Shown here piece by piece: positions 25,088 to 63,254 of a stretch of DNA of 64,000 bases. Numbering within the stretch: the stretch's first letter is position 1; each line of letters begins with the position of its first letter. Both the position numbers and the translations under genes were made by a program. The notes under the pieces were generated by a model that saw only the letters and a list, made by a program, of their open reading frames with translations, was not told the DNA's origin and did no database searches. The DNA is taken from the NCBI GenBank assembly GCA_028554795.2, contig CM068830.1:50416355-50480354 (forward strand), given 5' to 3'. The DNA comes from Sinohyriopsis cumingii. Its lineage: Eukaryota; Mollusca; Bivalvia; Unionida; Unionidae.

Positions 25088-25712
25088 CACTTGGTTAGAT
25101 TTCTGTACCCAAAACACATACTTAGGGAAGATTATATTACTCTCACTTTCTGCTATTACATGCAACACAACACAGTAAGGTATGAGGTAATGAGGTATTT
25201 ACAATGATTATGTACATAAGAGCTAAAACTGTTTCCTGACATGTTCAGAATAAATATTATTCTTCCTTGTTATTTAACATGACCTCAAACTGTCTTTACA
25301 GACAAAATATTTTCAGAACTTTCCAAGCCATATGCTGTTGGTTTGTTAGCACATTTAATGAAAATATGAATCCAAAATTTCCCATTAAATTGGACCCCTT
25401 TATCAAAGGAAAAATGTTTAAAATGCAAAGCAATTGTTCACATTGCATCTAGTTTCACTAATCTAGGTTTTAAGAAATGACAACAAATACAGTAACAAAC
25501 ACTAAATTAAGCTTCAAAATGCCTTAGTGTGCACTTATTTTTTTTCTAAATGTTGACACATTAAACAATAATCCTCATTTTCACATGCATATAATAATAA
25601 TAATAATAATTGGTGAAAAGGTACGAACTGCAACATATAATGATCAAGATTAAATACGCACATACTCAATAAATGCATTATGTACCTTTGGTACACTGAC
25701 AAATTACTTGTC

Positions 25713-25768
25713 AAATGTCATTTAGTCCTCAACAATAATCAAATGTCACTTAGTCCTCAACAATAATC
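25713..25768. repeat. 28-bp tandem duplication
   Basis: AAATGTCAYTTAGTCCTCAA-type unit of 28 bp, twice, with one difference. It lies in the presumed Ki-67 3' UTR. Confidence 0.9.
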
Positions 25769-25846
25769 ATAAATCATCTAATTAAGACCATCAGAAAAAT
25801 AATTTCTCAACAGTATTGTCAACTGAGAAACAAATCCTGTGGCAGC

Positions 25847-27675
25847 TTACTTTCTAGCTCTAGTTACTCTTTTTGCAACTACTGGACTTTTGATCAACGT
25901 TTTGCCTTTTGCCAACTTTTTGGCAGGAGAAGCCCTCTTTACATTGGGTTTTGTTGTAGCCAGTACCTTTGCTGGAGATGCAGCTTTTGCTTTTCCTCTA
26001 GTTGTGCGTTTTACTGGGGAAGCTTTATGCAAAATTACAGCTAGCTGTGTTACAGCCTTTACATCTGTGGGTGAGTTTTCTTTAGGGCCTCCTTTCACAG
26101 GGCTTACTGTCTTCTTGCCTCTTGTCCGCTTGACAGGCGATGCTTTTTTGTGGGGAGAATCTGCTTTCTTTGAGTTTTGATTTTTCTGCTCTGGGCTTTG
26201 ACTTGCTCTAGTACCTAGTTTGCATTTCAAAGCTGTCCTTGCTGGGGAAGCTGCGTTTCCCCGAGAGGCTTTTCTTCCTTTTGCAGGAGATACTTGCACT
26301 TTTGGACTAGATATGGTTCTTTTCTCTGCCAGTGAAGACTTAGGGCTGACTGCAGGCTTTTTGGACCTTCTACTAGTTGACTGTTTAGCAGGTGAAGCCT
26401 TCTCCGGTGATTTGACTTTGGGTTTGCTTTCAATCTTTTGTATCTTATTTGGACTTGTAGTTTGAACAGGTTCTGCCTTTCTCTTTGAAGCAGATTTAAA
26501 TGGAGTAGCTGGCTTTTCTGATACTGGCTTTGCTCTAGTTCCTCTTCTGCCTTTCACTGGATTAGATATGGTTCCTTCCTCTGCCAGTGTAGATTTTGGG
26601 CTGACTGCAGGCTTTCTGGGGCTTCCACTAGTTAATTGTTTAGCAGGTGAAGCCTTCTTGGGTGATGTGGCTTTGGGTTTGCTTTCAATCTTTTGTATCT
26701 TATTTGGACTCATAGATTTAATAGGTTCTGCCTTTCTTTTTGAAGCACGTTGAGCTGGAGTAGCTGGCTTTTCTGATACTGGCTTTGCTCTAGTTCCTCT
26801 TCTGCCTTTCACTGGAGTTGGTTCAGCCTCAGATACATTCTGTGCTATCTTCTCTTTTGGAGAGGCTTTCTTTGCTGGAGTAATAGTTTTTCTTCCCCTC
26901 CCAAAACTTGCCTTAACAGGACTTGCTGGTTTTGTAGTTCCTTTCCCTGGTTTAGCCAAGTTTTCCAAATTTACAAGTGGGGAAACTGCTTTCACATCTA
27001 CAGGTGGTTCAGCCACTGGAGTAGCTGTTAATTCTTTTGCTTGCGTAGCAACTTTTCTTCCCTTTGTTGCTTTCTGCTTTGCTGGGGTTGGTTTATTTGC
27101 TGAACTTGTAATCTTTGCAGCAGCCTTTCCTCGTGTAACCTTCCTGATGGGTGTAGCTAGTTTAGGACTGATCTCTGGAGCAGGTGACTTGGTAACGAGT
27201 GACTGTTCTTTAACAGCTAATTTCTTCATAGAAACTGGTGTCTTATGTGCTGCCCTGGAACCCCTTGTGGCTCTACCCTTAGCAGGTGATGGAGTCTTGG
27301 CAACTGGTGTAGGGGTCAAAGCAGTCTTTGCACCACGCCTTGTAGTTTTGGCCTTTGCAGGTGTTGCAGGTTTTACTAAAGCTTTGGCTCTGTGACCTGC
27401 TTTTACTGTAACAGGTGAAGCTAGTTTAACAGGAACTTCAATTGCTGAAGATGCTGGTCTGCCAGGACTATCAACCTTGTCTGGAGATTTTGTGCTCTTT
27501 GCACCACGTCGACTTGATCTGGCTTTTACTGGAGAAGCTGGTTTCACTGGTGAAGCAGCAGCTTCTGCTCCACTACGAGTTGTCTTTCTGCCAGGCAGCT
27601 TTCCTGCCTTCTTGGGTGATCCTTCTTGTATATGAATAGCAGCTTTTACAGGTGATGCAGACTTTGCTGGAGAAG
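25847..27675 (-). CDS. MKI67: Ki-67 terminal exon: basic SPAK/SPVK repeat tail
   Basis: Acceptor TTTTCTTTCAG|CT in phase 1 completes GCT (Ala) with the G of the previous exon; the exon encodes 608 residues to TAA at 25847-25849. Almost wholly K, S, P, A, T and R, with dozens of SPAK, SPVK, TPAK and SPKK motifs and GRRGTRAK elements. An 85-residue block (VKGRRGTRAKPVSEKPATP ... IQKIESKP) occurs twice in tandem (offset 255 bp, at about 26310-26815). It ends VAKRVTRARK. Vertebrate Ki-67 also ends in a basic chromatin-binding region rich in Leu-Arg pairs. I see a basic tail here but no clear LR pairs, so equivalence is inference. Disordered and probably chromatin-bound. Confidence 0.85.
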
Positions 27676-30600: not shown

Positions 30601-33600
30601 ATTAATTTCCAGGGTTTTTCCAGGATGAAATTACTTTTTTCAAGGTTCACATATGACCATTACTGAATGGAATTAAAGAACATTTTAAATTACAAAACAT
30701 GCATTTTCTAAATCTAAAGATGTTTCTCTTTCAAGGCTCTACAAAAACGTCAGTCAGAAAAGATGATCATGTACAAAACCACAAAATGTATCACACAAAA
30801 TCAGTTTGATTATATTCCGATAAATTGGCATGTAAAGTCATCTCAATGTACAGAATAAAAACTTATTTTGCTGCATTATGTTGCTAAGTGGGAACAACAT
30901 AGTGAACATAAATTATGTTTTGTTTCCTATCAAACCTTTAATTCTAAAGAATTCCATAGCAATATATATATATCTCATTTCCTATTACAGTATAAAATAA
31001 CAAATGCAAATTAGAATTTAGTCTTGTAACGAAAAGAGTTTAACTCTGAATTTATATCTGTGCCATAAAAATCCCAAACATGATTTTTCAAAACAACTTA
31101 ATTTCCTTAAGATGATCTTTTTAAAAATCCATCATTTATAAAACATTTTCAGAAGAGATGATTTAAATTTTGACAAAAGATCTTCAAAATTATATACTGT
31201 TGTATAAACGAGGGCTGAATTTTCTGTCCACTTTTCTTCTTCTAATTTGTTGAACCAGTCCCCAAACCTGTATTGATACAGGGGCTCACATCATTATTTA
31301 ATATATAATACAATGGATAACAATTTCTCATTTCAACTGAGATTCAACAATTTGGATTACAAATTTGGCTTAAAACGAATAGTAGTTCATTTTGTAATCC
31401 AAATTTCCTCAGAATATTCCCAGCACATTTTTCATATTTGGACATTTACGTTGGGGTGTGGGGTCATTGCAATTGCATATCGAAAATTTTGGAATTTTCC
31501 GCCACCGTGTGGGTAACAACATAGATAAGGTAGTCGCTGACCAACGGGCCTAAAAAATGTAAACTTATGTTATATCAACTCATACCTGAATGAAATTGCT
31601 AGGAAAATGATTTATTGTCTCAGAAATGGCAAATATTATAACTGTTATCTTGTTAATCTGCTAACAGTCAAGATGAAACTACGGCATAGATGAAACCTGA
31701 CCCAGTACTCACTATTTGCATTACTAGTCACATGACTTCACAAATCTCAATTGACATCTTAAGTCCAATACTCACGTGATATCAACAACAATCTCCTTTA
31801 TAATGTTGTACAGAAATTCAATTATATTAAATTACTTTTTGTAAATACCAGCAATCGGCCAGTCGGATTTATCAAGCAGAACACAAGTCGATGTGGTAGT
31901 CATGTGATATAACAAAACTACAAAAGTTTTTCTCGGAATATATATATAGAAAATTATGTTCTTTTGTTTTTTGTATTTTTATTACAACCTGTATAGGACT
32001 TTCATTTAATACTTTTTAAAAAACATTCTCTACAACAATTTTAAAATATAGGTTGGTAGATTTATGTACTCATGTGACTAGCAATGCAAATCACAAGTAG
32101 CGGGTCACATTTCATCGACGACGTAGTTTTATCTTGTCTTCCAGCAGATTAAAGATATAAAGATTTTAATTCTCACAAATTATTATGTTCTGAGAAAATA
32201 AGTAATTTTCTAATCAATTTCATGCAAGCATCGCTTGATCTAACATTTAAATTTCGCAGGGCCATCCAGTTAGCGGCTACACTTTGCCACCACCATGTAT
32301 GTTGGCCTTGTGTGATGCTAGACTGGTTTTCATATCTTCCATGTAAGGAAAGATATTGATATCGAGCTGACTTGAAAATAAAAGTCTACTAGATGAATCT
32401 AATCCACTGGGCGTTTGGATTGATTCAGCATATATGTTTATTGCAAGCAACCAAATGATTCATATTGCACCCTCTGAATATTCTGGTTTTAACTCGATAA
32501 ATTTAACTCAGGATCATTTTAGTTACTAATGAATTACATAATTATTTAGGGCATCAAGTGGTGGTGGTAAATTCCTAGATTTATCCTGACTATCATCAAT
32601 ATTTGCAAACTTCAAGGGCTTTTCAAGGTTGGGAAAAAAAAATCACCATTTCTCCCAACTTTTTCCCCGATAGCGTGAGAACGTAGTATGTTCTATGCCC
32701 CCTGCCTGACCATGTAGAAAAATACCAATATGGTTAAACACATACCTGTTTTCTTGGACTTCTTTAGGGTTTTCAGGGATTTCTTTGGAGAAGGAGCCTT
32801 TTTTCCTCTCCTTGTTAATCTGAAATAAAACCACACAAGACATGGTAATCAAAATATGTAAAGAAATGGAATGTTGGGAATAAAAATATTTCAATTTTTA
32901 TCAAAAGAAAACTTTTATGTTTGATTAAAACTGTTTGTTCCAAGCAACTTGTAGCTTGGATAGCGAAAGAAATTCTTTATCAGAAAAAAGAAGCAAAACA
33001 TCACAATTAATATAACCAGAAAACTGCCATTCAGTCAGAATGGCATGACAGCAAAACATGTCATTCATTGTAAAACCATTGTAGTGCACTTTACATCGTC
33101 TTGTTGTTTTAATGTTTTTTTGGTCAAAATGTAAAAATATCACTATGAATCTGATTAATCCAACTATGCCCATGAAATCCCTCTACAGTAAAAAATAAAG
33201 GAAGAAACAACATACACTCCTTACTTAGGATGGAAAATGGCCCATTTATCCTATACAGAATTTTCCAAAAATGCCAAACACTGGAGCACAAGTAAAATTT
33301 CATACCTTTGTTGCTTCAATTATCAACATAGAAACTATGAGCACTTAATTCTAGTATATATTAACTTTTATACTTCTCAAAAAACAGCCCCCCAAAGTGC
33401 CTCCTTTGCTTCGAAGTTTTGTAGCAGCAACATTTTGCAGTTTAAATTGTGCACAATGGAAACAAAACCCATTGTGTATCTTCTACAACAAGAACAAATT
33501 ATGTAATGATATGTATCGCTTTACTCCCATTGCCACTGGACAGAATATTCCAGTTTTCTCTAGCCCTGATAAATCTCTTGACCCAAGGAGCAAAATGCTT

Positions 33601-36600
33601 GTGAAAATAAAATGTCTGGCTGTTAAAATTTGAACCAGGAACTCAAAAAACCTCATCATTCACACAGATCTTATCCTCCAGGATTCTATTTCACCAGCTG
33701 CACACATATATCAATAAACTTATACAATCTTCAAAGAGCCAAGTGAACAAATAGTTGTGAAATATAATAATTAAAAACAAGTGTTAAGTACTTCTTCGCA
33801 GGAGGTGAGGACTTGACAGCAGGACTTTCCACTTCAACCTGTTTAGCTGGGCTTACTGGATTACTCTTTGACTTCTTGGACATAGGGATTGTGGCATCAG
33901 AGGCAGACTCAAGTGATGCTTTGCGTTTGGTTCCTTTTCTGAGAAAAAGAGCAAGAAAACTCTAAATCCAAGCAACAAACCACTGGTCAAGCTCTAGAGA
34001 AATGCTAACACATTATGGTATATAGCAAAGCTGCTGTCTTGTTTCACCCGCAATGAATATTGTAAATGGTAAGACAGTCGTTATAATATCTGCCCATCCA
34101 GCCATCAGTTGCAAACTTCTGCTTCATTTCTTTTATACATATATAAAGTTTATTTAATGGCAACAGATCACGAGACTGCTTACAAATACATTAACATCCC
34201 ATGAGATTTAATGCAAAGAAAGTCAATGATCAAGGTTTACATTTGAGGTATATGGATAAAGCAGCATTATTATTTTGTCCATTGATGAAATCAGCTATCA
34301 GCTGGGTGCTGCTTAATATACAATACAGTGAACCACTGCCAAACTGATCATCCATCTAGACCTCAATGATTAACTACTTCCATAGTTACAGGTAAAGATT
34401 GGTGGATGGTCAAGAGTAAATCCAATAAATTGTGACACTTAGACAAAAAAAATAATTAATACAATATGCACAATTTGAAATCACAAATCCTCAATAATTC
34501 TTTTAATCATTTTAAAAAATTCATATGGTAGCCATCTCATTCACCACGAGACAAATGATCAACACAATATGATCTTCAATGAATGTAACTGCTGCCATTA
34601 CAACTTTATATTCAGATAATGTTATTACTTTTTATACTTCTGAATTAATCACTTAAACATTTTAAGAGGCTGGTTCTCCATATTATTTTTTCCACTTAAT
34701 TTAAACTGTTGCTGTGTTGTAAAACCCTAAAGAAATAGACCTTCATAAATATAATGCAATTAAGCAACATGTTGCAATTGTACTGAAACCACACAAATTC
34801 AGTTTTAAACATTTTTTCCCTACTGTGCAGGAAAGATAAATGACAACATTTCATACCAAAAACATACATATATGCCAAACTTGCAAAGAGTGACATAGGT
34901 ACATATAAGCTGAATGAGAATGCTAACATGATCCACCCCTACCACTGCCATGGTGGGCCATAAAAACTGGTCTATTTTGATTGCTGTTGTTGTTATAGGG
35001 TTTAATGCCATTTTTCAGCACAAGATTGGCTATACATGGCAGCCAGTATAAATGGTGGAGAAAGAATCCGAAAAAACTCAGGAAAGAACCACCAACCCAC
35101 AACAATCCAACGGCAAGCTTTCTCACATATCCACATTGCCTGAGCCCGAGACTAGAACTGATGCAGACAGAAGTGAGATGGCAGTGATCTGTAACAGTGA
35201 GCGCTTTAGACCACTCAGATACTTGGGGCCCCCAAATTTGATTGCAATTCATCATCATTAGTGTTATGTATATTTAATTTAATTGTTTGTCTGTTAGTTT
35301 AAAAAATTTTAAAATTCTACTACGTTATTGTAATGTATGATTGTTTACTGGACTTGATTTTTTCCCTCAGAATTAAGTTCAAAATAAGTTCATTTGTGTT
35401 TGACCTGTTTTTGAAATATTCATTTCATTAATGTAAATGCCTAATGATAGAAACATTGTATCTAATTGATGACAAGAAAATCCATGACAGTTTTGGAGAA
35501 CAATTTTTTTTAAATTTTTATTTTATTCTTTCTCAGAGTAAGAATCATTTAGCTCAGTCCAGGTCATACCTAGACTATTTGACACAAGGCACATATTAAT
35601 TCATAAACAAACTTCCATTTTTTCCAGAAAGACAAACTCGACACCCATCCAGGTTCTGTTTTGCATTTTAGTTAGTGTTATAACTGATGTTATGATAAGA
35701 ATTTTATCAGTCGTGCCATAAAACTTAATAAGTCAAGTTGTTTTCATGTTTTGTCCAGTTTGGGACTGAAATTCCATTTTCTTCAAATTATTGAATTTCA
35801 ATTGATTCTTTTCCCTGTAAATATAAAGGTCCTTTAGTTTAATTCTTGGACAAAGATATTTACCCAAATTTATACAAATTAAAAAACAAACAAACTGGAA
35901 TAATATTTTCTATGATGCAACTGGAGACTTGACACATCAGTACAACGCTGAATACTGCATATGCCATTGCCTTCTATCTTGGATTTTCATCAGGATTTGA
36001 ACTGATTCACTTAGAATTTTTCATCCATAGGAATTGTTTTTTAATTCTTGGATTTCAATTTGGATTTAATTCACAATACCATTAAGTTCTTTTGTCTTAT
36101 TTTGTTCCTTTGTAGTCTAGGGAAATAAATTATTTCTTAAATTTTACAAAGCTTGTTGTCTTTACTCTTTTCTGTTACTTATTTTATTAGCACAGACACC
36201 AGTTTGAGAATACACCTTTGGAGATAACTAAGAAAATATATATCTATTCAAATATACAAATAAAACAAGGTGATGTAGAATATTAAACACAAAGATGGCA
36301 AATATTTCAAAACCGTCAACGGCAGCTAGATAAAAATAAAAAGGGATTGATATGGTGAACTCACCTTGGTTTAAGTGGAGATGGAGTTTTAGTAGGTACT
36401 GCTGCTCCTCTTACCCTCGTCTTTCCTGTAGCCTTGGCAGATGATCTTCCTTCAGACTCCTTATTCCCATCAGGAGATTCTGATACATTTTTTTGTGCAG
36501 ATTTAGCTGGACTTTTTTGTTTGGGAATCTGAAAATAAAACAACAAAACCCCCAAAACTATATAGAAACATGATCATACAGCGTGAAATCAAAATCATTC

Positions 36601-48600: not shown

Positions 48601-51600
48601 GTTTTCGGACTTGTGCTTCTTGCAGGACTCTTTGAAGTTGCCCTGGGAGTGGCAAAAAATGAGAACACTGCCTCTGAAGGGGTCTTTGCTTTAGGAGTAT
48701 TTGAAATAGCTGAGAAAACTATTGCAGGACCTGGAATAGCAATCTTATGGGTAGGTATAGCAACTTTGGGTGTTGCATTGTATGACTTATTAGCTTTTGG
48801 GGTACCCTTGGCAGATCTAGATGGAGAATTCTTCGACTTTCCAGGTGTCTTCTTTCCTGTTGATTTCCTTGGTGACTTCTTAGGAGACTTCTTTGGAGAC
48901 ATTTTATCAGATGACTTCTTTGCAGGAGACTTTTCAGTTGACTTTCTTCCAGGTGATTTTCGAGGGCTCTCCTCTTTGATTGGAGACTTCAGTGATGCAG
49001 CACCTGACCTTCTCTTCAGTAATGGTCTAGGCGAGTCTGAAGGCCCTTGCTCTGCCACTCGGATTGGCATTGCTCCTTTTTTTATAGGAGTTGATGGTGG
49101 CAATCTCTTATCAAAATGCTCAGGACTCAACTTTGGACCAAAAGACACTCGTTTCCTCTTTGCTGAAGGAGCAATCTGTTCAGTTGATTTTCTCTTCTTG
49201 CCAGAAGTTTGCTTTGGTGTCTTGGAGGTCTTCTCTGCAAAGAGAACAAAATTTAATGAAAAATATGCAAAGATTATTGTGAATGGCACACTATACATCC
49301 ACCAAGTCTTTTCACAAGACGCAATAGCAGGGCATAGCTGAGTCTGGATAATTTACTAACAGGTCTGACTGACCTGTATCTTTGTTCAATGTGTGCTGTC
49401 TAGAAATAAACAGAACAAGCATAAACCATTATTTTTTTCTTATTAGACTTACAGTGACCTCTAACCAAGACAAGTCAGTCTCAATAAGGCAGTTGATTTT
49501 TCCCGTAAGATCGACCAGTTTTCAGTCAGCTGTAAAAAATTATTAATAACTTATTGTAAAGCTGGAAAAAGTTATTAAAAGTCTGAGGCAGCGACGATAA
49601 ATAGTATGTTCAACTGAAAAATTTGTAAAGTATGTGTTGACTTTATTTACCACTAGTACAGTTGCACAAACTCTAGTTCCAAACCATATGCAGGTCAACG
49701 GCTTGTTGCTATCCCTCAACTTGACATAATTCTTTGAAATTCTTTTCCTGCCAAGTGACACTCAAATTGACACATGTCCAATAAATGTAATTGTGTCCTT
49801 TCCAGCTGTTATTCACAACAACCCGAATACTCCTTTTTATTCTTCTGTGTTGATTATTAATACTTTTCTAGAAGCTGATTTTCTTTTTTGTCTTAAACAT
49901 GCATCGCTTTCTGGACACCATTTAAATTTTTTTATATAATCAACAGTTTGATCATGCAGATGCTTCACATGAACAGATAGGTGCAGTTTAAAGCATCCGG
50001 AGTGCTGCTTTCAAGTTAGTCGGGTTCCTTGACTAATCTCACTAATTCTAAGATGGAACCTGGATCCAAATAAAACACGGCAGAACCAATTATCCGGATT
50101 TTTTGCAACAATCATTTTCCTGTAGTTTTAGCTACTATGCTGCAAGTCCGTATTTTAAGGGTAATTTTCATAAGACTTATGGCAAAATCATAAGAGTTGG
50201 CAGGTCTGCTAATCAGACCACACAGGAACTACAAGTTTCTTTTGCACTCCAGGTGCAAGCCATCCTCAAGCACAATTCCCTCTTTCTTCCAAGCCACTCA
50301 AAGGGCTCCATTTAAATCAAAATCATCATGAGATAAATGCCTCCCCACACTGTATCAACATTCTCAGGACTTTCAAGCTCCATCTGTGCCCCATCTATGT
50401 ATAAACTGTAGAGATGAAATTATTGACATATTGATAACTTGTCCATACTGACGCAAGTGTTGTTGTAGGGTTTAACGCCATTTTTCAGCACACAATGGGC
50501 CATATATGGCGGCCAGTATTAATGGTGGAGGAAGAACCCGGGAAGTCCCCGGAAAGAACCACCGACCCTCAAGAAGCTACTGGCAAGCTTTCTCACATAC
50601 CCACATTGGCTGAATCTGAGACTCGAACCCACGCAGACAGAGGTGAGATGGCAGTGATCCGTAACAGAGAGCGCTTTAGACCACACGGCCACTCGGGGCC
50701 CCCTACTGACGCAAGTGAAGAAACATTATAAAACAATACATACACTAAAGAAGTTACTAAGATCTTCAGCAGTCAATAATAATTATTGGTTATTTGCTTT
50801 ATTTTTCTTTAAACTGAGAATTCATCTGAGACAGCAGTAGCAGGCACAGGCACTAATTTCTCTCACTAAGAAAGAAAAACAGTTGACATGGACTAAATCG
50901 CATGGTACATGATGAGAAATCTGCCATCCATTCCCAATTCTATGCAGATTATTTTATCCAATCAGCATGCACAACTGTTTGATAACATAAATCCAAAGAC
51001 ATTCCAGATTTGGTCCACATGTACGATTTAAGTACTTGACTAATCATTTAATACATTATGCAAAGTTTCCTTTGTTTTCCAGGCTATACTTCTGGTGTCA
51101 CAGTGAAATGTTACATTCAGTTCTGAATAGTAATTTCTGTTAAAGTACAAAGTAAAACAACAACCATCAATCAGAAGAAAATATGTGTTTTGGTTTTTAA
51201 CATAGCTTTAAAAAAAATCCAGTCATACTGATATGATGTCTGCAGTGTGGCAGTTTACAGTCATGTCTAGAACTGGGGCATCATGCTGCAGAGAAATAGC
51301 TTGATATCCTATCCAGTCATGTTATCCAGACCTCAGGCCAACCAGTTGTAACACTATCATCTTAATGCTGAATGCCAAGTTAGGCAGCTTTTACTTGGAT
51401 TTTTAAAAGTCTTTGGTATACAAATGTAGCTTGTTCACTGTGAACCCGCTTATAATGACGAGTCAGGCATAGATCCCATTTTTAAAACCAGAAAATACCA
51501 ACAAATGTATCCAAAATAAATAAATGAAACTATGATATATTGCCTGCTTTATCTTCAAAAAATGGTAGAGGACCTTGAAATTTTAATCAACATTACGAAA

Positions 51601-54600
51601 TGTGCAACTTTTACTAAGATAATTTGATATTCTTCCAAATGACATTCTTAGGACTCTGTAATTAACAATATTCAAGGACATTTTGATCAATGATTAGTGA
51701 AACGTGTGATTTATTTATATCTTTTAGTTCCTTTTATCTGTAACCATTATAAATGCAATGTTTTCTCTTGTATTTAAACTTAAAATGTGTCAATCTACCG
51801 TAAAACACATGTCCATGAGTGTTTCTATGAGAACATAATAAAGTGCTCGACATGTTTTCATATCTGACTAGCCCAAGTATTGTACTGTTGCACCGAATTA
51901 AACGCTGGCATCCTTTGTATTTTCACATTAATTAAATGTGAATTAAATAAATGAGGTGGATAAAAGAAAAGTTAAAAGTCATACAAATCCTACATGTTTA
52001 AGATCTAGCAGCCCTGGTCATATGAACTTATTTCAGCTGATCACTGAAACACTTAGATAAATGTTATTGTATGAGTCAAATAATTAAATTACCCTATTTA
52101 CTCAGAACTGATCAAAGTTAGGAAGGCAACCAAGTGAAGTGAATACTTCATAAAATAATGAGCTTTGTTTCATCAGGGTCCATAGGTCAGTAGAGCTGAA
52201 ATACAACGACTTATCAATGACCAGTTTTCAGTTTTCAACGGCTACTCCAGACCTGCCAACCCTGATGAGTCTGTCTCAGTAAGACTGTTTATTTTTGTCC
52301 AGTAAGATTGACCAGTTTTCAGTAAGAGGTAAATAAATATCAGTAACTGCTATTGCAAAGCTGGAAAACATTATTAAATGTTTGATGCATCAACGATAAA
52401 CATTACATTCAATCAATAAACTTGTAAAGTACAGGTAGACTTTATTTACCACTAGTGCAGTTGCAGAAACTCTAGTTCCAAACCCTATGCAGCACAATGA
52501 CTTGTTGTTATCTCTCAACTTGACATAAGGCTGGTTCCCTGATTAATTTCACTAATTCCAAGATGAAACCTGATCCAAATAAAACACGACTGAACCAATT
52601 AGTCGGATTTTCCAGCAACAATAATTTTTTTTCTGTAGTTTTCACTAATATGCAGTAAGTCCATATTTTAAGGGTAAATTTTCTTAAGACTTACGGCAAA
52701 ATCTTAAGAGTTGGCAGGTCTGCTACTCACAGTATCAAGTCTTCTGCTTCAGTTACTAATTTAATACAAGAAACAAATACAAAAACAATGCAGAAATAAA
52801 TAAATGTAATATGACAAGGAAATTATATCTAAAAAGAAAGTAATTGTAACCCAGATGTTATCCATGGCCCCATTTAGCTTATATACTTTCTTCTCCAGCT
52901 GCAACTATAGTGCTTTCACTTGAGAAAGATTGCCAGGATTTTATATTTTATCTAATGTGTGTGTCTGCATCAGATTACCCACTTGTTACGAAAATAAAGG
53001 GGGAGTAGAATAAAGGAGGGGAAAATGGCTATAGTTTACTATATACATAAAACATCAATATCCATCCATCTTTCTTCCAGATACACCAGCTGGAACATGT
53101 TTGGAAACTGTTCCTCGTGTTAATTATGTACATTGTTTCACTGCTTAAGGGCAATGGCTTTTGGTTACTTTGGCTCCAAATAAGATTTTTGACTAACATA
53201 AGCTCTGCTGAAGTTTCACTTTCGTGAAATCAGTGCATTACTGACTACTGTGCCAGATTTGCTATCTGTTCAATGATAGACTGCTGGTTCAGACAGTGGT
53301 ATTTTGATCAAATAAATATTGAATTCCTAAAATGGCTGTTCCACTCATAAACCTTAATATATTACACCAAAAAATTATCACTGCATTGATTTACTTCGAA
53401 AATAAAATAAAATCTAGGTGAATCCAAGAATATAAATCTATGCTGCTATTCAGTTTCACTGCACTCTTTCTTGTACCTGTGAAATGAATAGTAAATAAAT
53501 TAAAACACAGTTTTAAAAAACTCTTCAAGAATAAGGAGTTAATCTGTCTCTTTATAAGTCCACAGATTGGTATTAACAATCGCCAATTAAATAGTCCACA
53601 AGTTTACACCTATTACACAAAAACCCTTTCATTTTTTATACACCTTGGGGGTCTCCTCTATAATGTAAATCTGAGGAAGAAATAAATAAATTTTGTTATG
53701 TGATGGTTTTTGAAACCAGTTCAAATAATTGTTAACCATCTTTCAGATGGACATTTTGAAATTCAATTTAAGTTACACCGAGTTACAAAACAAGTTTTGT
53801 CTACATGTAGCGAATTTTTTAAGAGGCTCATAGCTCATGCCTTTGCTTATAGAGCAGACTACGTTTTTGGACCCCAATGTGTGCAAGTTATTGAAGGAGA
53901 GGTGTATTGGCATTCAAAAAGATTCAAGGCAACAAAAGTAGATATTAAACAGGTAACAAGTATGTAATATCTCCTTTTATGCTGATATATGTACCCAGTG
54001 GCTTAATGTGACGATAGGATTAGTAGAAGAAAAAAAAGCACATATTCAGCAAGAGGGCAGATTCCAATGACAGTTATAGCTACCTTGTTACTTTGTAAAA
54101 GGGGTGTGGTCACTGTTTTGTGGACGATAGTAAAAGATACATTGGTTCAAGTTGCAAGAGAAAGTTCATCATCGAACAGGATAAAAACAAAGTCAAAAAT
54201 GAATACTACAAAAAGTTGACCAAGCATACTGGCATAAAGAGCTTTCAAGTCGTACAAATGTGTCCAAGAGTATGGCATCAATAGATGTACAGACCTGGAG
54301 ATGAAGCTGGTATTTCCTTCAATTCTGGCACTGGTTGTGATCTTCTGCGCATTTCTGCTAGATTTGATTTTAGCTTGCTTGAAGATGCTGGGTAAGGGCT
54401 TCCTGCAGGCATCGACTGAAAGGAAAGAGAAGAACATTGTCAAGTTCAAAATGACCCATAATGACAGTCTGAAATCAGACAGTAAAATGATAATAACTCA
54501 GCATCATTTCTTACAAAGACTTTTAACAATCAGACCTACTGAGTCTCAGTACAATTCTTACTCGAAACTGAAGCCTCAACCAAAACTTTGGATGTAACTT

Positions 54601-57600
54601 TTTTTTTTTTAAAGATTCAAAGTCTGACATCAGTCTCTTTCATTCCCGGTTTCTTCCTCCACCATTAATACTAGCCGCCATGTATAGCCTATCGTGTGCT
54701 GAAATATGGTATTAAACCCCACAACAATCAAGCAACAGTGTCATTTGTGGAATATTTAAGTACTTTTATGATAAGACTTTGCCTAGTTCTTTTTTTAAAA
54801 TGTTTTTTCATGTTATGTTGTAAGACTGGCACCATTTTGATTTAAGAATAATAAGTTGTCACAAGCCTTTTATTGAAAACCCCTTGTTAATATGACCATC
54901 CATGTTAGAATATGATGTCTGTGCAGCACTATTTTCATTTAAGACCAACTACAGCATGGGATGAGTTCATGTGTAAAGTTTCAAGGCAATAATCCAGGTT
55001 GTTTAGAAGATGTTATAGCAAACAAACATACTAATGAACACAGATGTGATGGACTACAGACCATCACATAAGCTCTTTTGGTCCATTCATACATAACAAA
55101 AATCCAGCAGAGCAATTCTTTTAAAGTTAACCAAACATTCAAACATGGAATTGTTTTATGGAATTCCCGAGTACCTAATATAAAGTTTATTAAAAGAAAG
55201 TAAATGTCCCAGGAAAGGTTGACAGTGCAGGTGGCAAAAGCTGTTCAAGCAATCAAGATTATGCCATGGATCATTTTATCACTATTAATACCCGCAGTAT
55301 CATCTAGTATTTGTCTGTCCCCTGCACTTTGGATCCTATACAAAAAATTGCTGTCAGATTCTGCTCAGTGGCTTTTAGAGGTTTTAAAATGTTCTTATGT
55401 AAAGTAATGGTCACCATATATAATGATGGACTGGTATCAACCAGTTGTTGTTGTTGAGTTTAATTATAGTGGCGTGCGCACAACTGTGCATGTGCCACTT
55501 TTTTCTGACTGCACCGCAGCCTGCTAGTTGTTCCTGGGGAAGGGAATGGTGCCACCTCCCCCAGGCTTTTGAGTTCAAGGAACCCTGATAGTTTGGCCTC
55601 AATCTGTGGGTCAATAAAGGTCCCTTACAGTTGAATGGTTAGCTGTCATTAGTGGGAAGGAGAGCTCAGGAACGGTCCTGCTTGCTTTACATCGCTGGTT
55701 TCTTGTTGCATTTGCCTGGTGTTTCTTGCGATTTTTTCTTCTTCAAAATGTTCTATAAAAAAAAAAAAAAAGGGGGGGGGGGGGAGGGAATGTTCTATGC
55801 TGTTTATAGAGGTTCTTAGTAGAAATCATGTATGAAGAGAGATTTTCAAGGTTATTATGGTATTACTAGTCGAGGTGTTTAGGGTGTGCTTCCTACGTTA
55901 TGTCATTTAGAAGTTTTTAGATATTGCCTCTTTAAGTTATTTATTTATTAATGTTTTTAGAGACTGAATGTTATTTAAACTTTATTTAGCAAGAGACCGG
56001 AGTCCTAGCCGATTACACGGTTCGTTAAGGACATCTAGGACCGGAGTCCTAGCTGATTACTCGGTTCGTTAAGGACAAGCGATTTTGCAGTTTCCTTAGT
56101 TTTTTTTATAGGTGCTTCATAAGTGAATTATTTATTAATACTTTTATAAAACTGAATGATATGTTATGGGTTTTTATGTGGTGGCTTCTAAATTCAACCA
56201 GAAAAATAGACATACACATCAGTTCATATGTGCCAAATGTCCTGTCACTTAAAAAACTGAGTGGTGAACTACAAGGTCAACGGAATATGTCCATCAGATC
56301 CCAAATGCTGTCAAGTGGTTTTGAGAAGATGCTGAAGGTTTTTCCCTTTTACAGTGACAATATTAATTGACAGGTTACTGTAACCTGAACAAATTCAAAA
56401 GGCTTTATAGCCAAAATACTCCCTGTAATACTGCATCAAAAATAGTCACAACTTTTCTTAGCGACTGTACAATGCATGGCAGATCATGCCATAATACAAG
56501 AAAAGAATAAACAAAGTGGACCCCCCCCCCATTTTATAATATTTGAACTCGTGTTCATTTCTATCTTTCAATGAAGTTGTAATGACTTGTGATGAAAATG
56601 CTAATTTGTTTCAAATTTACCTTCCTTTTGCCATCTTGTATTTTCACACGTGGAGTCTGGGCCTCCACTGATTTGGGACTGGCAGACTTCCTGGCTGCTG
56701 TTTTTGTGGTAGGGGTTTGGTGTGTGACTGCATTTGGTGAAGGAGATCTAGATACTGGTGAGACTGACTGTTTCTTGGGAGAAGACTTTCTTTTTGGAGA
56801 AGTAGATTTAGGTGTTCTGGCATTAAGTTTTTCTGCTCTTGGTGTTGATGGTCCTGGGACAGACACTTGAGGTGATGCACCTCTAGGTGTTTCTGATGCA
56901 TCGGATTTTGCAGAAGATAACCTAGGAGACACTTTTCTTGATTTAGGGGATTCTGGTGTGATTGATCTTGGTAGCATTGGTGTCTTTTCCTTCGGAGAAG
57001 ATGCTCTTGGTGTTTGTGTCTTGGGAGTAGATGCTCTTGGAGTCTGAGTTTTGGGTGTTGGTGCTCTTGGACTCCTTGACTTGGGTGATGCAGAGGGCCT
57101 TTTTGATTTTGGAGTTTGAGACCTTGGTGTGTGACCAGATTTTGGACTCCTGGCTGGGGAGGGAGAATTCACTCGTTTCTTGGCAGATTTTGCAGGTGAA
57201 ACCGACTTTCTGGCTGGTGGTGAAGACTTTGACTTTGGGGTGGCAGAGTTATTACTGTTACTGTCATCCTGTGACAAGGGAGTGATGGCCAACTTTGCTG
57301 GTGAGGATGAAGGAACCAAATCTGTATCAGATTTACCTGCTGTAGTCATTTTAGAACTACTCACTGGTATCATTTTATGACTACTAACTGGTGTCTTCTT
57401 TGGACTCTGGGAAGCAAACAAATCTAGTCCTGATTTCACATTTGCAAACTGGGAACTTGGAGTCAATGGCTTAAGAGGTGTTCCTTTAGGTTTTGGTAAT
57501 GGCGAGGACTGAGGAGGTTTCAACTGAAAGAAACAACAATACAGTGCAAGAAAAAGAATACTGATAACAAGTTTATGTGTAACATTTTCTACCATTTCTA

Positions 57601-60600: not shown

Positions 60601-62493
60601 GAAAAAAACGTTCCCTTACCATGGCCATGAGGGGGACATGGCAATGGAATGTAAGAAACCATCTTATCATGATATACACTTGGGAAAATTTATTGTTAAA
60701 ATATTTTCGAGGTTCAAAAGCTGAACCACGTTCAGGAAATTAATATAACTGAAAATACCAAGAAATATGTGGAAATAATAATATTAATATATTAAAAGGA
60801 AATGCTCTTAAATTGAATAATTTTTAAATAGTTGAACTTGACCCACTTTTTAGTCTGTCACTCCTTGTGTAATTAAACAAGTTTGCTGTGACCATAAAAC
60901 TAAGCAAATTTGACTTGTTGACAACAATACATTATCATAAAACCAATATGGCAAGAAAATAAAAAGGCCAATTTTATGAAAATATTTATACCAGTAAAAT
61001 TAAAGAGATAGTAAAGAACACTCAGGATACACATAACAGTATAATACATATATTAGAATCAATCCTGTATTCATCGATCTCATTTAATGACACTGCTTCA
61101 AAATGTTTTGTAATATAAGACAATATGTTTTTTTTATTGAATATAACAATGAATTAGAACTAAATGCCAAAAGGCCTGCAGAAAATACTGCCATGGAGGA
61201 AACATAACAACAATAACTAAACAGGACAAATCTAATCGTTCCTAAAGAGTTTATTCATATCAGGCAACCGTTAAAATCTTTAATGCCATTTAATATCACA
61301 AGCAAGCACTTCATTTAGTAGATGATTTGCATGTGCAAGTTTATCTCATTCTTTCATTGCCAAAGTGGTTGTGCCAACCAGAGCTCTGTACATCATACAA
61401 CAAATATAGTGATACATTTGGTCGCAGTACCAAATTTTTTATATATAGTACCTATACAATTAAAATGCTGCCTTTTGCACTGAAGGCATTGGTCATGATA
61501 AAGAGAACTAAACATGAAAACTGAGTTAAAAATGCAATACTACTGTGAATGGTACATTGTGTTCCTGCACTGAGTTAACTGCTTTTCTGCATAAAAAAAC
61601 TTAAAGTTCTGCAGAGAAACCAGGTTTTTTTCCTTCAGTTCAGGATGCCATTCCATTGACCTCTGGGTCCAAAATCAACATGTTTCTTGAACCCAAGTAT
61701 AAGCTATCAATACAGGTTTGTTGATGTACATCACGTGGAACAATTGTATTGCAATGAAAACCACTTTTTAAACAATTCATTCATTCAAAGTTGATTTATG
61801 AAAAATGCAGAATCATTTTTCTTCTTTCAAATTGATCCCAACTTACTAAGTAAAAATTTACTGGTTTTTTTCTTACCCAAGTGGAAGCAATCCAAAAAGT
61901 CTGGCAACTGTATTTGGTGAAGAACTATAATTGTTGTGCAGAGATTTTTTCTCAGACCTTTTGACATACTCATCAACAGAGTTCATCCTTACTCTATGCA
62001 ATGTCTGAACTCAAATTATTGTGCAGAAATAGCCTTCATGCTTTCAGTCATAGTGACCTTAACCTTTCAATCCCAAATACAAGCCATCAAATTTTTTTGG
62101 CAATTGTTGATGGTGGGCAACTCAAGTTATTGTACAGGAACCAAACTGGGAACTGACAGATGGACAAGATCATAGCACAATACTCTGCACATTATCAGTG
62201 GAACTATAAAAAATTTTGATTTTCCAAAACTGCACAATTGACAATATAAAGCATCTTTCCTTCAAATCCTACGAGTGAAAATATTTCACCTTTGGGGACA
62301 AAATTTTGCCACTATCTTTTTTTGGTGATGGACTTCTTCCTATGGGAGATTTTGGAGAATCTTCAGGGAACTCCAGCCGGAAAGATCGATCAACAATAGT
62401 AAATATATTGCTGTGCTTCAGTTGGGCTGTAGAATGCAGTGGTTTGTTATTCAAGAGCACTGGATTGACCTCGCTCAAATTAGTCAGAAAGAC
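25847..62493 (-). CDS. MKI67: Ki-67 (MKI67) orthologue, eleven exons, 5' end outside window (gene overview)
   Basis: Exons in transcript order: 62493-62290, 57523-56621, 54415-54295, 49234-46185, 44644-44495, 41765-41541, 40815-40669, 36528-36365, 33938-33792, 32819-32746, 27675-25847. All junctions are AG/GT and all phases agree, giving 7,014 nt with one frame to TAA (2,337 residues). Domain order: FHA C-half (1-40), PP1 dock RVSF (about 438), S/T-P-K-R repeats, (S/T)GhxxLhxTP motifs, WSDIVKSG (about 1387), GHADSPITIVIGK (about 1444-1456), basic SPAK/SPVK tail. Vertebrate Ki-67 is a nuclear protein that coats mitotic chromosomes, recruits PP1 and organises the perichromosomal layer. Repo-Man (CDCA2) shares the PP1 and central motifs but lacks FHA, so FHA decides for Ki-67. 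The function here is inferred. Dense S/T-P-x-K/R sites suggest CDK phosphorylation. Confidence 0.85.
28540..28600 (-). repeat. SINE-B tail fragment
   Basis: TTATAGGGTCTAACGCAATT and TTTCAGCACAAGATAGGCTA match the tail side of the full copies at 34985 and 50460. Confidence 0.7.
29145..29340 (-). repeat. SINE-B, head-truncated copy
   Basis: GTTGTTGTTGGTGTAGGGCT, CAGCCAGTATTAATGGTGGA, TTCTCACATACCCACACTGG and GACTCAAACCCACGC match the family; the tRNA A-box end is missing. Confidence 0.8.
29930..30127 (-). repeat. SINE-B, strongly diverged copy
   Basis: AGATAGGCTATACATGGTAG, CAAGCTTTTCCACA and GACTTGAACATTGACAGAGG follow the family order with many changes, ending near the head (CACTTGGCCGC). 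Confidence 0.55.
31530..32280. mobile_element. Foldback MITE-like element in the Ki-67 intron
   Basis: The left arm (31530-31790: GTAGTCGCTGACCAACGGGC ... CAGATGAAAC-type text ... AGTCACATGACTTC) is repeated in reverse in the right arm (32040-32280: ATGTGACTAGCAATGCAAAT ... TTCATCG ... AGTTAGCGGCTAC). The arms are diverged. No target duplication found and no coding frame. Confidence 0.6.
32746..32819 (-). CDS. MKI67: Ki-67 exon: short basic exon
   Basis: 74 nt, phase 2 in and phase 1 out; acceptor TTTTATTTCAG|A, donor ACAG|GTATGT. The first A completes AAA (Lys) with AA from the exon at 33792. It encodes LTRRGKKAPSPKKSLKTLKK SKKT. One SPKK site. Too short for an ORF search but required for the frame: the upstream and downstream exons join only through it. 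Confidence 0.75.
32820..33791 (-). other. MKI67: Ki-67 intron
   Basis: Donor AA|GTACTT and acceptor TTTCAG. No repeat or other feature recognised inside. Confidence 0.6.
33792..33938 (-). CDS. MKI67: Ki-67 exon: K/S/P-rich
   Basis: 147 nt, phase 2 in and out; acceptor TCTTTTTCTCAG|A. The first A completes AGA (Arg) with the AG that ends the 36365 exon. It encodes KGTKRKASLESASDATIPMS and then KKSKSNPVSPAKQVEVESPAVK-type sequence ending PPAK. The donor AA|GTACTT is weaker than the others in this gene, but phase and composition fit. SPAK sites as in the terminal exon. Confidence 0.75.
33939..36364 (-). other. MKI67: Ki-67 intron
   Basis: Contains one full SINE-B (34985-35236). The remainder is AT-rich with no feature recognised. 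Confidence 0.6.
34985..35236 (-). repeat. SINE-B, full copy with target duplication
   Basis: Tail side TGTTGTTGTTATAGGGTTTA, body CAGCCAGTATAAATGGTGGA, head GCGCTTTAGACCACTCAGAT and TTGGGGCCCCC. TTTGATTGC flanks both ends (34976-34984 and 35237-35245). Confidence 0.85.
36365..36528 (-). CDS. MKI67: Ki-67 exon: S/K-rich
   Basis: 164 nt, phase 0 in, phase 2 out; acceptor TTTTATTTTCAG|ATT, donor CCAAG|GTGAG. It encodes IPKQKSPAKSAQKNVSESPD ... TRVRGAAVPTKTPSPLKP. SPAK and TPSPLK are CDK-type sites. No globular domain; probably disordered. Confidence 0.8.
36661..37746. mobile_element. Non-autonomous hAT-type element, 1.1 kb
   Basis: Starts ATAGCTGCCAACC and ends TTGGCAGCTAT, inverted copies of ATAGCTGCCAA. 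The flanks ATACATGC (36653-36660) and GTACATGC (37747-37754) form an 8-bp duplication with one mismatch. Inner text near both ends repeats AAATACTGATTTT / AAATACGGAAAAACGGG motifs. No transposase frame. Confidence 0.65.
38160..38640 (-). pseudogene. hAT-like transposase fossil
   Basis: Minus-strand frames read SIAIDRSSDYDDTELYTVCV with VRDFDNEKGNVRVL, then WQNFMGFSDDNASVMIGIHK, then (frame shifted) VVRHMMHLAAGKAANKLGEP. This is the order ATDGSSD..., GF.SDNASVM.G, CH..HLAA.KAA of hAT-family proteins with ZBED/DUF4371-like cores. Frameshifts and stops break it, and the catalytic Asp position reads AIDRSSD. Confidence 0.6.
40006..40202 (-). repeat. SINE-A, tail-truncated copy
   Basis: CCCACCCAGTCACATTATCC, GCACCTAGCGAGGCAGC, GGTTCAAACACATGACCT and CTAACCACTTAGGTCACCAG match the reverse of the family, including the tRNA-like head. 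Confidence 0.8.
40368..40392. repeat. Poly-C run
   Basis: 25 consecutive C on the + strand. Confidence 0.95.
40669..40815 (-). CDS. MKI67: Ki-67 exon with two (T)GhxxLhxxP motifs
   Basis: 147 nt, phase 0 in and out; acceptor ATGTTGCAG|GAA, donor CAAAAG|GTATTT. 49 residues: ELFGAKKQ..., then TYEGIKRLMTTPKQQ and SPTGLALLFSSPQK. Both echo the core of vertebrate Ki-67 repeats (LxGFxELFQTP) and the SYSGVADLFTTP of the previous exon. Confidence 0.8.
40816..41540 (-). other. MKI67: Ki-67 intron
   Basis: AT-rich; no feature recognised. Confidence 0.6.
41541..41765 (-). CDS. MKI67: Ki-67 exon with SYSGVADLFTTP motif
   Basis: 225 nt, phase 0 in and out; acceptor GTCTTTTCAG|TTG, donor GTAAAG|GTAAAT. 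75 residues with GNTSYSGVADLFTTPPSS, then SEIPDTPDGPGEMFVSPLSA and SVLLFGVK. In vertebrate Ki-67 the segment just after the GHANSP..IIIGK motif reads LSGIAEMFKTP, so position and sequence agree. Confidence 0.85.
42220..42910 (+). repeat. Dispersed repeat C/D, copy
   Basis: 42229-42480 aligns by eye with 53381-53620 (GCATTGATTTACT, GAATATAAAT, CTCAAGAATAAG..GGAGTTAAT, AATAGTCCAMAAGTTTACAC). 42820-42910 carries TAGGTAACCCGTATTTTAAA and AAAACTTCCTCGATG, as in copies near 18640 and 21605. Confidence 0.6.
43481..43764 (-). repeat. SINE-A, near full length
   Basis: (TG)n, then ATGATGTCTGAAGTGTGG, CATGCTGCAGACATGTAGCA, CCAGTCACATTATCCTGACA, GATTGAACCCACGACC (B box region) and CTAACCACTAGGCAACCGGA (A box region): the reverse of the copy at 16630. 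Confidence 0.85.
44495..44644 (-). CDS. MKI67: Ki-67 exon with TGHADSPITIVIGK motif
   Basis: 150 nt, phase 0 in and out; acceptor TAATTTATAG|GTT, donor CTGAAG|GTTAGT. 50 residues: VPPKTPRSKAAILAPTTGHA, DSPITIVIGKRKHVVKTP, KSLPKKGRKSLK. Vertebrate Ki-67 has GHANSPCTIIIGK at the equivalent place (after the WADVVK motif), and Repo-Man has a related SPCTIVIGK. One of the strongest family signatures in the gene. Confidence 0.9.
44645..46184 (-). other. MKI67: Ki-67 intron
   Basis: 45040-45440 is a copy of dispersed repeat E; nothing else recognised. Confidence 0.6.
45040..45440. repeat. Dispersed repeat E ('TGACCTTGACCTTTAACC' family)
   Basis: CAGTGACCTTGACCTTTAAC, ATGCAATGCAAGCCATTCAC and AAGTTTGGCAACTGTAGGTG resemble 61620-62165. 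Similar text is common in mollusc genomes; assignment from memory, not searched. Confidence 0.4.
46185..49234 (-). CDS. MKI67: Ki-67 giant exon: PP1 dock, S/T-P-K-R repeats, WSDIVKSG
   Basis: 3,050 nt, phase 1 in, phase 0 out; acceptor TTCTCTTTGCAG|AG, donor AGCCAG|GTTAGT. It starts KTSKTPKQTSGKKRKS. KRKRVSFGPKLSPEHFDKRL then PPSTP (49157-49086) is the Ki-67/Repo-Man PP1-docking segment (RVxF plus the following KiR-type stretch). A basic SPKKSPKK block follows, then about 15 KSPAR motifs within TPRxASKSPARKSTSPKAS units. Three 237-bp higher-order copies start at 47476, 47713 and 47950 (minus-strand unit ends). Then FSGSAHDISFTGL, LSFTGLSELLATP and ASLTGITELLKTP, a basic stretch, and TKTWSDIVKSG (W codon 46302-46304), matching vertebrate SWADVVKLG. 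About 1,017 residues, mostly disordered. Confidence 0.9.
47440..48260 (-). repeat. MKI67: 237-bp in-frame higher-order repeat within the Ki-67 exon
   Basis: GTCCCTGCAGGACTGTC recurs at 47476, 47713 and 47950, exactly 237 bp apart (79 codons), with few differences between copies. A related GTCCCTGCAGG occurs at 48250, 300 bp on (237+63, still in frame). Each unit has two or three shorter SPAR/SPKAS sub-units. Confidence 0.9.
49455..50207. mobile_element. MITE F, longer diverged copy
   Basis: Shares GACTTTATTTACCACTAGT, CAGTTG..ACTCTAGTTCCAAACC, CTCAACTTGACATAA, AATAAAACACG..GAACCAATTA and the right end GAGTTGGCAGGTCT with 52249-52721. About 250-290 bp extra lies at 49735-50020. The left end is eroded. 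Confidence 0.7.
50460..50703 (-). repeat. SINE-B, full length with target duplication (reference copy)
   Basis: On the minus strand it begins GGGGCCCCGAGTGGCCGTGT GGTCTAAAGCG (tRNA A box) with B box GGTTCGAGTCTCAG. The body is CCACATTGGCTGAATCTGAG-type text and it ends ...CCCTACAACAA. TACTGACGCAAGTG flanks both ends (50446-50459, 50704-50717), a perfect 14-bp target duplication, so insertion is recent. Confidence 0.9.
50780..51180 (+). repeat. Dispersed repeat C-related copy
   Basis: TTCTTTAAACTGAGAATTCA, CATCTGAGACAGCAGTAGCA, ATCATTTAATA and CAACCATCAATCAGAAG match 15285-15700 inside the hAT-type element. Confidence 0.55.
51185..51420 (-). repeat. SINE-A, head-truncated copy
   Basis: TTTTTAACATAGCTTTAAAA, ATGATGTCTGCAGTGTGGCA, CATCATGCTGCAGAGA, GGCCAACCAGTTGTAACACT and AGTCTTTGGTAT follow the family in reverse; the tRNA head is not present. 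Confidence 0.75.
52249..52721. mobile_element. MITE F, intact ends, 473 bp
   Basis: Begins AGACCTGCCAACCC and ends GAGTTGGCAGGTCT, a 12-bp inverted repeat. The flanks GCTACTCC (52241-52248) and GCTACTCA (52722-52729) form an 8-bp duplication with one mismatch, hAT style. No coding capacity. Related copy at 49455-50207. Confidence 0.8.
52960..53620 (+). repeat. Dispersed repeat C/D, copy
   Basis: ACGAAAATAAAGGGGGAG, TTTGGCTCCAAATAAGATTT and TTACTGACTACTGTGCCAGATTT match 20830-21230; 53381-53620 matches 42229-42480. Confidence 0.6.
53747..53952 (+). CDS. Unexplained open segment with splice-like ends inside the Ki-67 intron
   Basis: Bounded by AACCATCTTTCAG on the left and ATTAAACAG|GTAACA on the right; 206 nt, open throughout in one frame: DGHFEIQFKLHRVTKQVLST ... 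then RADYVFGPQCVQVIEGEVYW and KRFKATKVDIKQ. Mixed, globular-looking composition unlike the disordered host gene, and on the opposite strand. Not recognised. It may be a transposon or retropseudogene remnant, or chance. Confidence 0.25.
54295..54415 (-). CDS. MKI67: Ki-67 exon: 121-nt linker exon
   Basis: Phase 0 in, phase 1 out; acceptor CTTTCCTTTTCAG|TCG, donor TCTCCAG|GTCTGT. In phase 0 it encodes SMPAGSPYPASSSKLKSNLA EMRRRSQPVPELKEIPASSP. Its final G plus AG from the next exon makes GAG (Glu). A different frame is also open, but only phase 0 joins both neighbours. Confidence 0.75.
54635..54735 (+). repeat. SINE-B tail fragment
   Basis: TTCTTCCTCCACCATTAATA, CTAGCCGCCATGTATAGCCT and GTGCTGAAATATGGTATTAA match the family on the + strand. 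Confidence 0.8.
55995..56078. repeat. 44-bp tandem duplication
   Basis: GACCGGAGTCCTAGCYGATT start, twice with 44-bp offset and few changes. Confidence 0.9.
56621..57523 (-). CDS. MKI67: Ki-67 exon: S/P-rich linker after FHA
   Basis: 903 nt, phase 0 in and out; acceptor TTGTTTCTTTCAG|TTG, donor AGGAAG|GTAAAT. 301 residues starting LKPPQSSPLPKPKGTPLKPL, with SGLDLFASQSPKKTP and many TPKTQTPRAS and SPKSRSP units, ending VKIQDGKRK. CDK-type S/T-P-x-K sites are frequent. Disordered, corresponding to the long linker between FHA and the PP1 site in vertebrate Ki-67, without residue-level similarity that I can see. Confidence 0.8.
59034..59311 (-). repeat. SINE-A, diverged near-full copy
   Basis: CATATCGCTATGATGTCTGC, GCATCATGCCAAAGACATAT, CTTAATGCTGAGCACCTAGC, GGGTTTGAACCTGAAACCTC and TTTAACCACTTGAGCAGT follow the family in reverse with an internal deletion. 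Confidence 0.8.
61620..62165. repeat. Dispersed repeat E, copy
   Basis: ATAGTGACCTTAACCTTTCA, ATACAAGCCATCAAATTTTT and TGGCAACTGTATTTGGTGAA resemble 45040-45440. Confidence 0.4.
62290..62493 (-). CDS. MKI67: Ki-67 exon: C-terminal half of the FHA domain
   Basis: 204 nt, phase 0 in and out; acceptor CTTCTTTTCCAG|GTC, donor CCAAAG|GTGAAA. 68 residues: VFLTNLSEVNPVLLNNKPLH, then AQLKHSNIFTIVDRSFRLEF, then SPIGRSPSPKKDSG. In vertebrate Ki-67 the FHA domain has LHNFSSTNPTQVNG and RLKHGDVITIIDRSFRYE here, so N-P-x-x-(V/L)-N, LKH and the DRSFR ending all match. FHA domains bind phosphothreonine peptides; vertebrate Ki-67 FHA binds NIFK and KIF15. The phosphate-binding residues of the N-terminal half lie upstream, outside the window. 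Confidence 0.88.
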
Positions 62494-63254
62494 CTGGAAA
62501 AGAAGAACTGTTTGTTTATATATATCCATTTTTATGGAAATCTTGGCCTGTCATTTAAAAGTGTGTGAATGTGAGGATGATAGCCCAAGTCATAGGCTAA
62601 TAGCATTACAACAGGCTTACTTGACCTTGATAGTATCTTGTCAACAGAGGACACTGATATAAAAAATGAGGTAGTTGTTCAAAAGCGAGAGTCTTGCAAA
62701 TGGTTAATGCTGATTACCAATATATGAATGGGGTAGGGCTGAAAATGAATATGCTGAATGTGTAATTTGTTTGTGATTCATAATCAGTGAGAAAGTATGA
62801 AATGCCAGCATTGTTGTTAATTGTGACACAATCCTTCCATTATACCTACAGGTCCATTTAACGATTGTACAGCTATTTAGCAAACTAGTGACATGTGGTT
62901 TCAGTAGTGGAGTTGGGAAAAATAAATTTAATTTAATACCAGTCTAAACGTTAAGATTTTTATTTCATTAATGAAATCTTAACGTTCCTAACATTTATTA
63001 ATATACTGAAATAAAAACATATTTTTTTAATTGCATTTCAACATAAAAGTAGAGTCCACTGCAGTGGATCATAAACATGCTGAAGGATTTTGTGTCAGTT
63101 ATTATACCTGTCACATGCATAGAGATTTTTGTGTTTGTCTGATTTATTTTTGCTAGCAATAGTAGCTGCATATAGATATGTTTACATAAAAAAGATGTTA
63201 GCAGTTTGACTTCACCTTCGCTGCCAACCCTCCAGGCTCATAATTAGTGAAAAT

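Follow-up and report, generated by a model that had tools for sequence, protein, structure and literature searches.

The 64,000-base stretch analysed here (the window, C7:50416355-50480354) carries on its minus strand nearly all of a long gene in which four modules can be read: an FHA domain at the N-terminus, a segment for PP1 docking, an extended disordered middle rich in S/T-P, and a basic C-terminal exon. From 62493 down to 25847, eleven exons with GT/AG ends join into 7,014 bases, that is 2,337 codons with one terminal stop; these numbers exactly reproduce those given for the exons in the first-pass annotation of this DNA. With two further FHA exons upstream of the window, the ATG-to-stop model has 13 coding exons and 2,394 residues. 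Splice-site choice was guided by phase, and because the phases served to pick the sites, their agreement along the model is not independent support for it.

Exon A (62290..62493; acceptor score 11.8, donor 6.8) encodes the end of the FHA domain (its last third, VNPVLLNNKPLHSTAQLKHSNIFTIVDRSFRLEF) together with the first linker. The linker continues as 301 disordered, S/T-P-rich codons in the open frame of exon B (56621..57523; acceptor 8.7, donor 7.9) and in the short exon C (54295..54415; acceptor 11.4, donor 6.7). The large exon D (46185..49234; acceptor 11.1, donor 8.6) holds the PP1-docking segment (RVSFGPKLSPEHFDKRLPPSTPIKKG) and an S/T-P tandem array, along with GLSELLATP and GITELLKTP units and TWSDIVKSG. 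Exon E (44495..44644; acceptor 5.8, donor 7.6) carries the TGHADSPITIVIGK segment. Exons F (41541..41765; acceptor 10.1, donor 7.9) and G (40669..40815; acceptor 5.3, donor 4.9), both backed by motif counts, contain respectively an SGVADLFTTP unit and the units GIKRLMTTP and GLALLFSSP. Next come a linker in exon H (36365..36528; acceptor 8.1, donor 12.0), a basic linker in exon I (33792..33938; acceptor 10.9, weak donor 1.3) and the small basic exon J (32746..32819; LTRRGKKAPSPKKSLKTLKKSKK), the top of 8 candidates in a phase-constrained scan with a score of 16.8. Exon K (25847..27675; open frame, acceptor 8.0), with a net charge of +121, is a basic, S/T-P-containing C-terminal exon that ends in the stop codon, and is a candidate chromatin-binding tail.

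Some details of the 3' part have alternatives. An earlier ten-exon version, with exon I joined to 27695 (2,319 codons), was replaced when inclusion of exon J gave 2,337 codons. The exon J splice sites are open in a second frame too, the exon K acceptor may be either 27675 or 27666, and a donor-like site (score 7.2) lies immediately ahead of the stop codon. A scan of ORFs and acceptors downstream of 25847 for a further C-terminal coding exon gave none that was convincing. The intron between exons C and D contains paired copies of a dispersed repeat (49497-49729 and 52294-52528) that are 82-83% alike. Minus-strand open-frame pieces at 63200-63650, in the intron between FHA exons, are reminiscent of a hAT-type transposon.

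With E allowed to reach 10, a phmmer search of exon A alone among 177,635 PDB sequences retrieved only the two Ki-67 FHA entries, and exon A was also the best match (1.3e-8) of the human FHA query, whose sequence agreed with PDB 2aff, in the whole window. The first half of the domain was looked for in 62494-64000, inside the window, and was not found there. The first-pass annotation had named the lack of an N-terminal FHA half upstream as an outcome that would count against the gene; both missing exons are present past 64000. The human query, run against 30 kb upstream, matched them in order (E 1.3e-9 and 2.2e-8), at 65809-65710 and 64987-64906 in window numbering, which is 0.9-1.8 kb beyond the window. 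The start ATG lies at 65798 in the first of these exons and is preceded by an in-frame stop. In Pfam the complete domain scores 53.5 bits against a cut-off of 20.7, under which exon A by itself falls (13.1 bits). The joined domain matches the Ki-67 FHA (2aff) at 7.7e-30 with 106.5 bits, the best non-Ki-67 FHA reaching 26.4 bits, and 49 of the 97 aligned residues are identical to human Ki-67. By these comparisons the model protein begins with an FHA domain of the Ki-67 type, the first hallmark of the family.

The second hallmark, a PP1-binding segment made up of an RVxF motif and a KiR region, is likewise present here. The exon D ORF matches the Pfam family PP1_bind (PF15276) at 7.2e-14, the match covering RVSFGPKLSPEHFDKRLPPSTPIKKG. 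Across the whole genome (2,904,868,851 bases in 1,138 contigs; 3 candidates scored) PP1_bind has a single match, at this locus, with 58.5 bits against a cut-off of 27. RVSF stands at residue 495 of the 2,394-residue model, near residues 505-508 of human Ki-67 (PMC5005033), and its serine is preceded by basic residues, like the Aurora B site described for the human protein in the same paper. The published KiR-SLiM pattern, FDxxLP(P/A)N(T/S)PL(R/K)(R/K)Gx(T/S)P (PMC5005033), is not matched strictly: on comparison by eye, three of its defined positions differ in FDKRLPPSTPIKKGAMP, which has S in place of N, I in place of L, and M in place of T or S. Against PDB the segment gave 3 matches, among them Repo-Man (5inb, 3.5e-8) and Ki-67 (5j28, 1.7e-7). 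The PP1 segment alone does not separate Ki-67 from Repo-Man; the FHA domain does.

The PP1 genes offer a view from the partner's side. Arg20 is the PP1 gamma residue that permits binding of the KiR segment (PMC5005033). A genome search for PP1 gave 32 matches from 49 scored candidates, and residue 20 was read in three copies. Two of them, on C19 and C2, have intact-looking N-terminal exons with Arg at the KiR-selecting position, and a Gln20-type PP1 is absent at these two genes. The third copy (C9:25265700-25266800) is an intronless, stop-bearing retrocopy with His at the residue-20 position.

The motifs named in the first-pass annotation occur in the order that it gave, with RVSF at residue 495 followed by TWSDIVKSG at 1443, TGHADSPITIVIGK at 1500 and SGVADLFTTP at 1545 of the 2,394-residue model. 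TWSDIVKSG and TGHADSPITIVIGK are candidates for the conserved central domain of Ki-67 with its 22-residue motif (PMC4841783), and the TGHADSPITIVIGK segment may resemble the human TGHANSP segment. A further element sought here was the vertebrate repeat. At E values up to 10, K167R (PF08065) drew nothing from exons F and G, from the end of exon D or from the whole exon D ORF. The genome-wide search likewise had no match at the locus; its 13 weak matches lie elsewhere and all stay under the cut-off (best 0.079). Of the three Pfam profiles that had been suggested as a check, FHA and PP1 are borne out above their cut-offs, and K167R is not found at the locus.

The gene lies in a single CpG-poor tract that spans the locus and exceeds its coding part on both sides, upstream to about 85 kb. 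With the ten-exon model, the observed/expected CpG ratio came to 0.16 for the exons of the gene and 0.31 for its introns, compared with 0.64-0.65 for two intergenic stretches. A change point falls near 19-20.5 kb, with 0.77 on one side and 0.27 on the other; its log-ratio is 126, while 300 permutations reached no more than 21. Such mosaic CpG depletion, read here within this one genome, is a usual feature of invertebrates whose gene bodies are methylated. The CpG-poor part at 20000-25846, several kb past the stop, could belong to an extended 3' UTR or to another transcribed region, and a CpG-rich block at 67501-70000 (o/e 0.96), within the poor tract and upstream of the first coding exon, is a candidate unmethylated promoter.

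These results bear on a first objection, that the host is a vertebrate with a diverged Ki-67, which would make the finding ordinary. We consider this very unlikely. A 2.9-Gb genome is usual in vertebrates as well, but the CpG mosaic (ratios of about 0.65-0.9 beyond the gene and of 0.16-0.31 within it) is an invertebrate pattern, vertebrates carry two PP1_bind genes where one match exists here, and neither of the two PP1 genes examined is of the Gln20 type. K167R has no match over its cut-off, whereas a review gives vertebrate homologues a version of the motif region (PMC8354752). The invertebrate origin that the first-pass annotation had put forward is supported on each of these four points.

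A second objection is that two adjacent genes, one with the FHA exons and one running from the PP1 segment to the C-terminus, were made into one by phase-guided joining. The exons were indeed joined from sequence alone, with phases used in choosing the sites, and the 4.8-kb intron between A and B yielded no other exon candidate in the scan. Against this, the order of FHA domain, linker and RVSF is that of Ki-67, with RVSF at 495 here and 505 in human (PMC5005033); the CpG-poor tract shows no weighty internal boundary between 22 and 64 kb; and joining the FHA exons to the PP1 exons required no intervening stop or polyadenylated end. We hold such a pair of genes to be very improbable. That the gene is instead an orthologue of Repo-Man (CDCA2), to which the PP1 segment is marginally nearer in PDB, is extremely unlikely, given a complete Ki-67-type FHA domain in a gene model where Repo-Man would have the PP1-docking segment without one, the likeness of human Repo-Man to Ki-67 over only about 40 residues (PMC5005033), and the single PP1_bind match in the genome.

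We conclude that the locus is very probably the Ki-67 gene of a non-vertebrate animal, the single co-orthologue there of vertebrate Ki-67 and Repo-Man, encoding a CDK-regulated, PP1-docking chromosome coat. Orthology to Ki-67, as first proposed, agrees with a Ki-67-type FHA domain and PP1_bind in one gene model and with an RVSF near its human position; that no second, Repo-Man-like gene is seen has the lone genome-wide PP1_bind match as its sole basis. CDK1 would act in mitosis on many of the 219 S/T-P sites in the middle, which in its phosphorylated form would coat the chromosome while the basic tail anchors the protein to chromatin. The FHA domain may bring in a partner that carries a phospho-threonine, NIFK for example. 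Until anaphase, Aurora B would bar PP1 by phosphorylating the serine of RVSF; thereafter PP1 could dock and undo the mitotic phosphorylation, and the S/T-P repeat expansion in the PP1 exon would do the job of the mammalian K167R repeats. A NIFK-like gene lies on C9. Its five pieces share a strand and follow one another in order; the best exon reaches 6.4e-13, and two pieces match weakly (0.004 and 0.19). The phospho-threonine block of human NIFK is not recognisable in it, and Pfam hNIFK_binding gave nothing over its cut-off.

The repeat region of this gene is unusual. Exon D contains a 237-bp tandem repeat at 47354-48171, with 96% matches over its 3.5 copies; a direct duplication of 255 bp lies at 26303-26816 in exon K. 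Searches of exons F and G against PDB at E up to 1, and of the PP1 exon against NCBIfam, gave no match. Five units resembling the Ki-67 motif (GLSELLATP, GITELLKTP, GVADLFTTP, GIKRLMTTP and GLALLFSSP) are spread over exons D, F and G; shuffled sequences gave a mean of 0.0055 units against these five for a pattern of the GxxxLLxTP type, which was devised after the units had been seen. When the human motif (TPKEKAQALEDLAGFKELFQTP, PMC8354752) was slid over the 2,319-residue model, the five units were among the nine best places; the best score was equalled in 296 of 2000 shuffles and the fifth-best in 9 of 2000. The comparison is suggestive of kinship between these units and the Ki-67 motif.

It is possible, though somewhat doubtful, that the long phospho-repeat region of Ki-67 was invented more than once, the array here arising by tandem duplication within the PP1 exon and the dispersed GxxELLxTP units over three exons representing the state that preceded vertebrate K167R. 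If so, selection would keep a long, S/T-P-dense disordered chain between the FHA/PP1 part and the basic tail, not the sequence of the repeat. We found no paper on a Ki-67 without K167R and with an array of its own in the PP1 exon, in a search outside of which lay subscription journals and preprints.

The 219 S/T-P sites, 80 of which have the form S/TPx[KR], sit in a 2,394-residue chain that is 25.7% serine plus threonine. If all of them were phosphorylated, the computed charge of residues 1-1784 would go from +271 to -73, and that of the C-terminal exon from +121 to +27. With only the S/TPx[KR] sites counted, none of the 100-residue bins becomes negative (2,319-residue model), so charge reversal would need near-complete S/T-P phosphorylation. 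Published studies disagree on what phosphorylation does to Ki-67 repeats: one study ties it to charge blocks and finds that it enhances condensation (PMC9106583), and another finds that complete phosphorylation of the repeats abolishes droplets (PMC10562473). The last exon is basic and not Leu/Arg-rich (L 3.9%, R 6.8%, K 17.4%); a review calls the Leu/Arg-rich DNA-binding region at the Ki-67 C-terminus weakly conserved (PMC4841783).

Compared with human and other vertebrate Ki-67, the protein has an N-terminal FHA domain of the same type, an RVSF-KiR segment in almost the same position, disorder rich in S/T-P, a basic C-terminus and repeats within one exon. It differs in that K167R is not detected, in a large array that lies in the PP1 exon before the TWSDIVKSG and TGHADSP segments, in five motif-like units distributed over three exons, and in having no clear Leu/Arg-rich tail. 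The Ki-67 of the annelid Platynereis, published in December 2025 (PMC12669781), is likewise from an invertebrate; set side by side with ours by its description, it has an FHA and a PP1-binding domain and a high S/T content (20% there, 25.7% here). Its authors state that they knew no other phylogenetically validated invertebrate orthologue of Ki-67. Earlier, an alignment by Booth et al. (2014, PMC4032110) had brought together Ki-67 homologues from Ciona, Saccoglossus, Hydra and Trichoplax, and these authors regarded Ki-67 as ancestral to Repo-Man. The PP1-binding segment on which that placement rests is shared with our gene; their alignment is of the PP1 region, unlike our model, and the passages concerned do not state whether those homologues have an FHA domain. 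Repo-Man shares the PP1-docking segment as well, but it is a vertebrate paralogue without FHA, and the present genome has no second PP1_bind match. Elsewhere among invertebrates, Ki-67 has served as a sea-cucumber marker (PMC11925454) and Hydra has been stained with a commercial anti-Ki67 antibody (PMC8526868).

The first-pass annotation had argued that a gene of this kind would date the architecture before the split of Ki-67 and Repo-Man. The direction of that argument holds, with FHA and PP1 segment in one gene, and the single PP1_bind gene here fits the placing of Ki-67 as the ancestor of Repo-Man by Booth et al. (PMC4032110); the exact vertebrate K167R repeat is absent, and the novelty does not stand, the evolutionary claim having already been published (PMC4032110, PMC12669781). 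What the locus adds is a further invertebrate Ki-67, with an unusual repeat region, and it strengthens the 2014 case for one Ki-67-like gene before Ki-67 and Repo-Man. As a marker of dividing cells, Ki-67 is employed all over the world and is one of those on which pathology relies most, and the variability of its repeats was an open question in a 2021 review (PMC8354752). A complete invertebrate gene with FHA and PP1 modules and without K167R offers a natural way to test which parts chromosome coating requires.

The plus strand of the window carries other features. At 8442-11001 there are pieces of a non-LTR retrotransposon, with a reverse transcriptase domain at 9556-11001 (RVT_1, 3.1e-19). 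The only Rfam match is a tRNA-Pro (AGG) at 16633-16705, barely over threshold (31 bits against 29). Elsewhere in the genome, a simple tandem repeat on C19 near 21015000, which reads RYFDIQG with many stops, mimics reflectin in protein searches, and the reflectin match there carries no information on lineage. Molluscan haemocyanin (PF14830) had no match here and none in any control, which is equally uninformative. Positions 876-1259 of the window hold the final exon of a gene for a cytochrome P450 (8.4e-24 to Pfam p450; best solved relative CYP120, 1.1e-19), which may be CYP26-like.
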